Positions 29,666 to 33,069 of a stretch of 64,000 nt of DNA are shown here, in pieces (position 1 is the stretch's first letter; every line of letters begins with the position of its first letter). A program made the translations under genes and the position numbers. Under the pieces are notes generated by a model. It saw only the letters and a list, made by a program, of their open reading frames with translations, had not been told where the DNA came from and did not search any database. The stretch spans positions 1 through 64,000 of the forward strand of contig JAJBTZ010000090.1 of NCBI GenBank assembly GCA_020860605.1, written 5' to 3'. The DNA comes from Ruminococcus sp. GTDB lineage: Bacteria > Bacillota > Clostridia > Oscillospirales > Ruminococcaceae.

Positions 29666-29694
29666 TTGACAACCTGAGAATAGTGTGCTACAAT
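29666..29694 (+). promoter_or_regulatory. sigma-A promoter for the NPTTG surface protein
   Basis: TTGACA (29666-29671), 17 bp, TACAAT (29689-29694). Confidence 0.85.
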
Positions 29695-29701
29695 TTCAAC
29701 G

Positions 29702-29815
29702 TAGGGTGAATGTTCTGTAAAACGTTTAACTTGCAAAAATCATTTCGGGGGGTAGTACCTTCGGTACACCCAATTTCAACCTCCGACACTAAAGAGTGCT
29801 GCGGGGGATTTTTTA
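29702..29815 (+). ncRNA. structured 5' leader with terminator/antiterminator-like pairing
   Basis: Between the promoter and a gene 165 bases away lie a G-run (29747-29752), a hairpin GTACC-TTC-GGTAC (29755-29767) with flanking GGGT/ACCC pairing, and a terminator-like stem: CCTCCG (29780-29785) with CGGGGG (29802-29807) enclosing CACT-AAAG-AGTG, then six T (29809-29814). ACCTCC can instead pair with GGGGGT upstream, a classic antiterminator alternative. It matches no riboswitch class I know. A similar leader lies at 36346-36430. Confidence 0.55.
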
Positions 29816-29859
29816 TATCTGTTTTTCGTCCTCCTTGGCACAACTGAGGAGGATATATT

Positions 29860-32800
29860 ATGAAAAAATTAAACAAACTTCTGGCTGTCATCACAGCCTT
29901 GGCAATTGCGTTGAGCATGATGAGCTTGGTCACGATTGCGGATGAATATGAGTATACTGTATACATTAACAGTGTAGATGAGTTCCTTGCTCTAGCTACA
30001 GCTGAAGATGCAGATAATGATGGTCAAATTTATAAGGGCTATTTGATTGTGCTTAACATAGATATTGACTTTTCCGAATTTACGAGTGTTCAAGAGTCTT
30101 ATGCGAGCAATTTATTCCCGCTATTTTCTGGAACTGGTGCTGGGTTTGCGGGAACATTCGACGGTAACGGTCATATCATTTCTAATTACAATATCGACTC
30201 ATCAGGAAGCTATGTCGGATTGTTTGCCTCTATAAATGGTGGTATAGTCAAGAATTTAACCATAACAGGTTCTGTCTCAGGCGGAAGTAATGTAGGTGCT
30301 ATTGCTGGGACTGTTACTGATGGCACAATCAGTAATTGTACGAGTTATGTTACTGTCAGTAGTATATATGAAGAAGCATGGTCATACGACATCGGCGGCA
30401 TAGTTGGCTATGCCAAGGAAAGCACAATCACTAATTGCAAAAACTATGGAAGCAGTGTTGATGGCGATAATGATGTTGGTGGTATCGTTGGAGTTATGTA
30501 TGATACTACTATAAGTAATTGTGTAAATTACAGTAATGTGACGATGCATGAAACATGGGGAGTTGGAGGAATCGCAGGAGAAATTCATGGCGACAGTCTT
30601 GTTTCAAGCTGTTCAAACTATGGTGATGTCGTTTCCGTTGACGATGGCGGTATGGTTGGTGGAATAGCCGGATCATTTAATTCTGGCGATGGTGAAGGTA
30701 CTGTTGACAATTGTTACAATTGCGGAGCTATAAGTGGTCCTACCAGTGTTGGTGGAATTGTTGGTAAAATGACGAATGCATATCAAATTACTAACTGCAC
30801 CAACGATGGAGATGTTGTCGGAACTGGAAATAGGGTAGGCGGCGTTATTGGATATGCACTCAACCTTTATTCTATTGAAAATTGTCACAATAATGGTGAT
30901 GTAACTTCAAGTGGCTATTATGTAGGTGGAATAGCTGGACGAACCAGTTTAGATGATTTTAATTCATGTTCCGCAAGCTTTGACTACATCATTGTTAGTG
31001 ACTGCTCTAACACAGGCGATATTTGTGGCGGTTACAATTACATCAGTGGTATTTTTGGAGATGCAAAGGCTGTTATAGTGACCGATTGCTACAATACCGG
31101 TAGCATATCCACCACATCAGACAGAGGTGCTAGTATGGGTGGAATTACAGGCTACTTATATGATGACAGCTCGTTAACTGATTGCTACAACGAAGGAACA
31201 GTAACTGGCTACCAACTTATTGGTGGAGTTGTAGGTAACTCAGCAGGTGGCAATATTGAAAGGTGCTACAACACTGGAAGTGTTACTGGTGCAGTTGGCT
31301 ATATAGGCGGTGTAGTTGCTCGTGCAACTAGTGAGACTGGTTATGACGATGTGACTTGTATACTGAAAGATTCATATAATACCGGAAGTGTAACAAGCAC
31401 GGGGACAAGCGCATATATTGGTGGAATAGCTGGAATTTTAAATTGTGTTTATTGTGAAAATTGTTATAATGCGGGTTCGGTAATAGCTGATGATAGTGGT
31501 CATATCGGCGCAGCGTTTGGCAGTGCTAATCTTAACAATAGCGGCGAGATGTTGGGTACTGTAAGCAACGTATACTATCTTGACACATCCGCAGAATCTG
31601 CTGTTGGCTCTTTGTCTACTAACAGTTTCACCTCTTATGTCACTGCCGGATTAACCTCAAAGACCGAAGAAGAATTTAATTCCGGTGAAGTGACATATTT
31701 GCTTAACGGTAGCACTTGCTCTGGCGACTTGATTTGGCATCAGACTGTAGTAGATAGCTCTACAGATCAATATCCTGTTTTGAATGATAAATCGAAGACT
31801 GTTCTTCAAATAACTGTCATACTGGATGATGATATATATGGCGTTTGCTACACAAATGTTGATTGCATACTTGAGGAATATCCTACTTCTAATTTGGGCG
31901 ATCTTCTCTTCTATTATGATAAAGAGTTAACCTCAGAGATTGAAACTGCGACGGGTATATACAGTAATGATACAATAATTTATGCAGCATATGCTCAAGA
32001 AGACGTTGAGTACAGCATATCCGTATCTAAAGCAGAAAACGGCACCGTAACCGCTTCCCCAGAAACTGCTGCTGCAGGAGATACGGTTGCTTTGACGATT
32101 ACTCCTGCTGAAGGCTATGAGGTGTCAAGTGTAACCGTGACTTATGGCAGTGGGACTGAGGTTACTGTTGCTGCCGACTATACATTCACGATGCCTGAGA
32201 ATGATGTTACTGTAACTGTTGTATTTGCAGAAAAGTCTGGCGGTTCTTCGACTGATGATCCTTCAACCACCACGACCCATACTGTGACAACTACTCAGAC
32301 TTCTCTCGGCACAGTCACAGTCACCCCGACATCCGCCGAAGCTGGTGCAACTGTAACTGTTACGGTTACCGCAAACACTGGATACACTGTTGCTGGAATC
32401 ACTGTTAAGGATGCGAGTGGTAGCTCTGTAACGGTGAGTGGTTCTAATGGGGTGTACACTTTCACGATGCCTTCATCTGCTGTTACAATAACTCCATTAT
32501 TTACAGCCGATTCGAGCTCATCTACAACTGAGCATACCCATACTTATGTATTCGTTGGCTGGACATGGTCCAGTGATCTGAATTCAGCTATAGGCACATT
32601 CTATTGCAGCACCTGTGGAAATAAGGCGATTTATCCTGCTACAGTTACATCTTCCACTACATACGGAGTTGTGACCAAGAATGCTGCTATCTATCTCAAT
32701 GGCGTTTGGTATACCGATAGTAAGATTGACACTTCATCTACTTCAAGCACAAGTACTTCAACCACGAATACCACCACTACCACAACTACGGAGACAGTGG

Positions 32801-32982
32801 ATGAGGTTATTCAGGTAGAAGACCCCATCGAATCCACCGAAACCGACACTGAGCCTGACGACTCCGAGCCGGAAGAGGTCACAGAGCCTGAGGCGGAGTC
32901 GAACCCGACTACTGGCATTGCAATTTCATTGATTCCAATGGCAATAGCTGCTCTCGCAGCCGTCTCCTCAAAGAGAAGATGA
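29860..32982 (+). CDS. cell-wall-anchored surface protein with GLUG-type repeats
   Basis: 1040 residues. Signal peptide 1-27 (KKLNKLLAVITALAIALSMM). Residues about 90-560 hold some 18 repeats of roughly 20-25 residues of the type GGIVG...ISNCYNTGSV (GLUG-like, probably a beta-solenoid). Two bacterial-repeat modules (about 713-790 and 806-880) have the NGTVTASPETAAAGDTV...YTFTMPENDVTVT pattern. A CxxC domain with YPATVTSSTTYG resembles the C-terminal domain of the 1-1293 protein. A Thr-rich linker, EDPIES and an acidic stretch precede NPTTG (1015-1019), a hydrophobic helix and KRR: a sortase-type anchor. No sortase is in the window. The role is probably adhesion. Confidence 0.88.
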   Translation: MKKLNKLLAVITALAIALSMMSLVTIADEYEYTVYINSVDEFLALATAEDADNDGQIYKGYLIVLNIDIDFSEFTSVQESYASNLFPLFSGTGAGFAGTFDGNGHIISNYNIDSSGSYVGLFASINGGIVKNLTITGSVSGGSNVGAIAGTVTDGTISNCTSYVTVSSIYEEAWSYDIGGIVGYAKESTITNCKNYGSSVDGDNDVGGIVGVMYDTTISNCVNYSNVTMHETWGVGGIAGEIHGDSLVSSCSNYGDVVSVDDGGMVGGIAGSFNSGDGEGTVDNCYNCGAISGPTSVGGIVGKMTNAYQITNCTNDGDVVGTGNRVGGVIGYALNLYSIENCHNNGDVTSSGYYVGGIAGRTSLDDFNSCSASFDYIIVSDCSNTGDICGGYNYISGIFGDAKAVIVTDCYNTGSISTTSDRGASMGGITGYLYDDSSLTDCYNEGTVTGYQLIGGVVGNSAGGNIERCYNTGSVTGAVGYIGGVVARATSETGYDDVTCILKDSYNTGSVTSTGTSAYIGGIAGILNCVYCENCYNAGSVIADDSGHIGAAFGSANLNNSGEMLGTVSNVYYLDTSAESAVGSLSTNSFTSYVTAGLTSKTEEEFNSGEVTYLLNGSTCSGDLIWHQTVVDSSTDQYPVLNDKSKTVLQITVILDDDIYGVCYTNVDCILEEYPTSNLGDLLFYYDKELTSEIETATGIYSNDTIIYAAYAQEDVEYSISVSKAENGTVTASPETAAAGDTVALTITPAEGYEVSSVTVTYGSGTEVTVAADYTFTMPENDVTVTVVFAEKSGGSSTDDPSTTTTHTVTTTQTSLGTVTVTPTSAEAGATVTVTVTANTGYTVAGITVKDASGSSVTVSGSNGVYTFTMPSSAVTITPLFTADSSSSTTEHTHTYVFVGWTWSSDLNSAIGTFYCSTCGNKAIYPATVTSSTTYGVVTKNAAIYLNGVWYTDSKIDTSSTSSTSTSTTNTTTTTTTETVDEVIQVEDPIESTETDTEPDDSEPEEVTEPEAESNPTTGIAISLIPMAIAALAAVSSKRR

Positions 32983-32992
32983 CACACTCTGT

Positions 32993-33027
32993 AAAAAGCT
33001 CCCCACCACGTGTGGGGAGCTTTTTCG
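32993..33027 (+). terminator. intrinsic terminator after the NPTTG protein
   Basis: AAAAAGCTCCCCAC pairs with GTGGGGAGCTTTTT around a small loop; the closing arm supplies five T. Confidence 0.9.
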
Positions 33028-33069
33028 CATAATGCCTTATAGCGCTTTTCTCCCCTTTCTAAAAAATTT

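Follow-up and report, generated by a model that had tools for sequence, protein, structure and literature searches.

The leader that precedes the NPTTG surface protein gene in the 64,000-nucleotide stretch of Ruminococcus sp. DNA analyzed here (the window; contig JAJBTZ010000090.1, positions 1 to 64,000) is probably a cis-acting transcription attenuator belonging to a lineage-restricted, unclassified RNA family that precedes many cell-surface genes. Its segment B would pair either with an upstream G-run (segment A) around an inner hairpin, forming an antiterminator, or with the downstream segment C, forming an intrinsic terminator. Another hairpin, D:E, would hide the ribosome-binding site and thereby add a translation block. 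Through such a leader, dozens of surface genes that otherwise differ from one another would form one candidate regulon in uncultured Oscillospiraceae, and the leader may represent a common control of the cell surface in a few related members of this group.

The window copy is about 160 bases long (Table 1). A preliminary description had named a good promoter followed by a G-run, a hairpin, a terminator stem and six T, 45 bases before the gene. The promoter is borne out and each of the other elements is present: the terminator arms 29780-29785 (CCTCCG) and 29802-29807 (CGGGGG) enclose a CACT/AGTG stem, and the T-run at 29809-29814 lies 45 bases upstream of the ATG at 29860. P1 and D:E were absent from that description. 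In the full leader transcript the terminator folds (-35.3 kcal/mol; z -2.8 against dinucleotide shuffles, 1 of 200 shuffles equal); a simple terminator scan reported none in this region. In a transcript cut off short of the 3' arm of the terminator, UCGGG and UCCGA pair and enclose the inner hairpin (z -2.7, 1 of 200 shuffles equal), in agreement with the earlier proposal that the 5' strand of the terminator can pair with the upstream G-run instead.

Table 1. Features of the leader and its gene in the window.
Feature	Position	Strand	Basis or remark
Leader element	29696-29860	+	Order: 5' hairpin, A, inner hairpin, B, C and six T, D:E
Sigma-70-type promoter TTGACA-17-TACAAT, TG before -10	29666..29694	+	11/12 consensus matches
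5' hairpin P1, sequence subtype-dependent	29701..29734	+	Predicted fold; two-sided changes within subtypes I and III
Segment A: C and G-run (29747-29752), 5' strand of A:B	29746..29752	+	Truncated-transcript fold, pair counts
Inner hairpin GGGTA..CCC, enclosed by A:B	29750..29771	+	Folds and pair counts
Segment B, CCTCCGACAC: 3' strand of A:B and 5' strand of terminator	29780..29789	+	Near-invariant; pair counts
Terminator 3' strand: segment C, upper AGTG arm, U-tract	29795..29814	+	Fold and pair counts
Hairpin D:E burying Shine-Dalgarno AGGAGG (29847-29852)	29828..29854	+	Fold, Shine-Dalgarno pairing statistics, flanking-pair changes
NPTTG surface protein gene: signal peptide, GLUG motif, InlB-like repeats	29860..32982	+	ORF and domain search

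No known riboswitch consensus had been seen to fit the leader by eye, and the Rfam covariance search likewise assigned it to no known class. Rfam 15 gave no match at the gathering score in the 64-kb window, and the best match of the leader element alone was a eukaryotic snoRNA family (E 0.27). Among 39 related loci (37 with the element, the window copy included), Rfam returned only tRNAs and sub-threshold matches; of the latter, RsaJ scored highest, with 28 bits on the opposite strand of one locus (L044) compared with a gathering score of 100. The listings and abstract openings searched in open-licence literature contain no description of the motif. Attenuation itself is known; judged from Rfam and from these listings and openings, an RNA family with a Shine-Dalgarno hairpin after the terminator and with surface genes as targets appears undescribed.

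Distribution of the leader and the genes behind it

With BLAST, the source genome yielded five further copies at E<1e-4, and nine relatives of the genus together gave some thirty matches at E<1e-3. Of 40 loci retrieved, 36 went into a covariance model, A2, after removal of two loci with a different leader (L047 and L079), one with masked N (L057) and one near-duplicate (L071, of L069). This model found 116 matches at E<=0.01 in 11 of the 31 genomes of the genus, from which locus sets of 100 and then 89 were taken, near-duplicates and weak matches being left out. A second model, A4, comprised 90 matches and was fitted to the terminator structure; it returned 122 copies at E<=1e-3 (115 at 1e-5) in the same 11 of 31 genomes, with 3 to 20 copies per genome. 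The other 20 genomes of the genus yielded no copy at E<=1e-3 with A4, their best E values being 0.003, 0.018 and 0.037. Judging from the order in which the genomes are listed, the 11 carriers probably form one clade.

Outside the genus, 396 genomes of the family and 391 of the class, drawn evenly from larger groups and scanned with stricter filters than in the genus search, gave only weak matches below 34 bits. Thirty of these, located on the correct strand and forming part of a longer list, were inspected: none has the GGGGGTA hairpin start, and in none do the 80 bases downstream contain a CCTCC..GGAGG hairpin; nine have GGGGG near the start. From their sequences we treat them as ordinary terminators. 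An exact-pattern search of named genomes gave 19 stretches. Fifteen derive from Oscillospiraceae or Clostridiales MAGs, in which the covariance model confirmed the element; those in Lewinella, Corynebacterium and Luminiphilus lack a model match, and that in Cohnella scores 30 bits. Viral contigs and phage records contained no match to the leader.

The genes behind the leader appear to encode mostly surface proteins with signal peptides. In a crude signal-peptide test, 82 of 115 downstream ORFs passed compared with 8 of 50 genes of the window, the latter including the gene behind the leader. Inspection by eye of some of the 33 failures (e.g., L186, L188, L195, L233 and L236) pointed to missed signal peptides or a mispicked start. 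Thirty chosen downstream proteins, that of the window among them, were searched against Pfam. The domains found were LRR_5 (BspA LRR), GLUG, InlB-type repeats, SpaA and pilin backbone; PKD, Big_2, lipase, Wzz, S26 (a signal peptidase domain) and acyltransferase domains also occurred, as did FHA, PP2C, Sel1, YbjN, DUF4352 and dynamin. Nine of the 30 carry no Pfam domain.

Leaders and signal peptides are similar among copies, and the residues after them are different. One pair of leaders (L166 and L167) is identical in the core and the Shine-Dalgarno region, differs by one base in the 5' part and precedes different surface proteins, which suggests that leader and signal peptide were exchanged as a cassette. 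Both observations would suit a non-switching 5' UTR, in which a promoter, stabilizing hairpins and a leaky terminator spread as the 5' ends of genes were duplicated, signal peptide included. We regard this explanation as improbable, given that copies also precede PP2C, FHA, Sel1, Wzz and acyltransferase genes and that one position of segment B, B6, pairs with two partners.

Competing helices and the Shine-Dalgarno hairpin

Covariation supports both competing helices, A:B and B:C. The closing pair of A:B, read directly from 109 copies (7 more could not be parsed), was C-G in 65, U-G in 19, U-A in 24, A-G in 1 and C-A in none. The association is strong (Fisher 1e-12), though the copies are not independent; the U-A pair occurs in 6 of 19 sequence clusters. 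In the A4 alignment, the counted A:B pairs are formed in 98.9% of cells. Its closing pair is CG in 50, UG in 16, UA in 15 and another combination in 4 sequences, i.e., paired in 81 of 85 cells. The three other counted A:B pairs hardly vary, so that the covariation of this helix comes from the closing pair.

For the terminator B:C, the lower stem is paired in 97% and the upper stem in 93% of cells. Two-sided changes were seen in 6 of 10 pairs, three of these in one sequence each; a change from C-G (69) to U-A (12) is among the better ones. The inner hairpin shows two-sided changes in all five upper pairs, with 76% of cells paired. In the homologous leaders, covariation thus extends to the inner hairpin and the terminator and, within A:B, to the closing pair. 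None of 500 shuffles reached the covariation score of either structure, a control that is limited by kinship among the copies, and slid partners scored far lower; the fit of A4 to the terminator favors B:C, not A:B. B6 is paired with its partner in A in 81 of 85 cells and with its partner in C in 70 of 82. Segment B as a whole is near-invariant, as would fit a strand with two competing partners.

In unconstrained folds of 71 copies that met limits on distance and Shine-Dalgarno sequence, B:C exceeded a probability of 0.5 in 67. One copy (L155) forms A:B unaided (0.94), and three (L225, L242 and L250) form neither helix well. Folds and pair counts from homologous leaders together indicate a terminator and an antiterminator that compete for one strand and would exclude each other, in keeping with the attenuation layout proposed at the outset. 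By default, the leader would be OFF, with the terminator formed and the Shine-Dalgarno sequence hidden; L155 speaks against a uniform OFF default. A factor that holds A:B would allow RNA polymerase to pass.

The Shine-Dalgarno sequence has an unpaired probability below 0.1 in 73 of 74 leader genes, selected by limits on distance and Shine-Dalgarno sequence, compared with 4 of 37 window genes (means 0.007 and 0.35). The pair flanking CCTCC/GGAGG is TA in 51, GC in 6, AT in 1, GT in 2 and mismatched in 10 of 70 copies. Control mainly at the level of translation, or an RNA thermometer acting through this hairpin, would account for these numbers, and the upstream hairpin would then simply terminate another RNA. 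This reading is nevertheless very unlikely, as it leaves segment A and the A:B pairing unexplained. In addition, T's follow the last hairpin in several copies, including L147, L148, L151 and L156, where the gene is distant and starts 110-229 bases after segment C; this hairpin resembles a second terminator.

If the leader is an attenuator as we favor, D:E would have to open as well once A:B is held, in some copies perhaps through pairing of the freed segment C with D. When A:B was forced in the 71 copies, at a mean cost of 7.1 kcal/mol, the mean probability of C:D was 0.41, D:E was still formed at 0.56 and the Shine-Dalgarno sequence was unpaired at a mean of only 0.18. A general domino from A-B through C-D to a free E was therefore dropped and is retained for some copies only. 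By eye, D seems ill-matched to C where the last hairpin is of the TCTCTTTCGG..CCGAAAGAGA type (e.g., L157, L227 and L246).

Candidate signals and related control systems

Cyclic dinucleotides had been offered as candidate ligands. c-di-GMP riboswitches precede adhesin genes, such as cbpA of Bacillus thuringiensis (PMC7423583), and the leader described here would share with that case the control of a surface protein from a leader. It differs in having no Rfam match, and its carriers lack both the c-di-GMP riboswitch family RF01051, which occurs in 2 of the 31 genomes of the genus and in none of the 11 carriers, and GGDEF proteins, which were found in none of the 11 carriers and in 18 of the 20 non-carriers. 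The absence of GGDEF may go back to one shared ancestral event. For these reasons c-di-GMP is unlikely to be the signal, and the lack of GGDEF proteins sharpens the question of which signal controls the surface in these organisms.

A true riboswitch, in which a small metabolite binds the region of the A:B helix, the inner hairpin and the A-rich stretch and stabilizes the antiterminator, is a less probable reading than an attenuator of the kind favored above, albeit the strongest of its rivals. Four well-conserved residues that most copies leave unpaired (A4 columns A20, 94%; A146, 82%; A157, 92%; A158, 92%) lie inside the region enclosed by A:B and would suit a binding site, as would the many copies per genome. 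The targets, however, are surface proteins rather than a metabolic pathway, c-di-GMP is disfavored, and the leader is confined to one part of one genus, a restriction unusual for metabolite riboswitches. Because of this narrow distribution, we infer that a metabolite is a less likely candidate for the factor holding A:B than an RNA-binding protein specific to the clade. In either case the factor would, if found, define a new antiterminator or ligand class.

Two known types of protein-dependent antitermination resemble the leader. In BglG/LicT systems the RAT hairpin shares sequence with the 5' strand of an intrinsic terminator, an overlap that is also seen here. A protein of this type was rejected as the factor, since none of the 31 genomes of the genus has a CAT_RBD match; the control was matched in 4 of 14. 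Leaders bound by ANTAR proteins of the EutV type consist of two hairpins with the hexaloop AxxGxx, the second structure overlapping the terminator, and the present leader likewise has a 5' hairpin followed by a structure that overlaps the terminator. Only one AxxGxx loop was found among 95 folded 5' regions, the part of the leader that was scanned. An ANTAR protein is encoded in 29 of the 31 genomes, namely all 11 carriers (one match each) and 18 of the 20 leader-free genomes, and does not discriminate between them. We therefore rejected an ANTAR-type RNA.

With trp-type attenuators the leader shares a row of segments, A to E, with alternative partners. It differs in that C:D pairing has only partial support and that the family has no conserved leader peptide: a start codon preceded by a Shine-Dalgarno sequence and followed by at least five codons before the G-run is present in only 17 of 95 copies, and we dismissed a leader-peptide attenuator on this ground.

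A wider conjecture, possible though doubtful, is that the leaders are a new, signal-responsive class of antiterminator RNA, present in a genome up to about 20 times, through which one factor determines a large part of the repertoire of surface proteins and exopolysaccharides in a lineage without c-di-GMP synthesis, perhaps in place of c-di-GMP as the surface-control signal.

Variation among copies

The consensus order of the family is promoter, 5' hairpin, TG[C/T]GGGGGGTA, inner hairpin, CCC-A, AACCTCC[G/A], terminator, U-tract and Shine-Dalgarno hairpin. In 92 of 116 copies the promoter matches the consensus at 10 or more of 12 positions, the G-run lying a median of 45 bases past the predicted start, and 96 of 116 have at least five T within eight bases after segment C. 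The sequence of the 5' hairpin differs between subtypes: two-sided changes occur in 4 of 8 P1 pairs in subtype I and in 7 of 17 in subtype III, and no P1 structure was predicted for subtype II from the MAFFT alignment. Many copies, L158, L163, L169 and L219 among them, carry a variable insertion of tens of bases in the inner hairpin.

The two loci set aside for their different leader (L047, G000:C23:476317, and L079, G008:C9:90279) come from two species and share a leader of the form GGGGGGTA..CCTGCCGGAAGCAGTAA..TCCG. It has no Rfam match at E 1, and the genes behind it begin like signal-peptide genes. In the window itself, a weak covariance-model match (17 bits, E 0.05) lies on the minus strand at 32991-33063, just past the surface gene, and is perhaps a bidirectional terminator.
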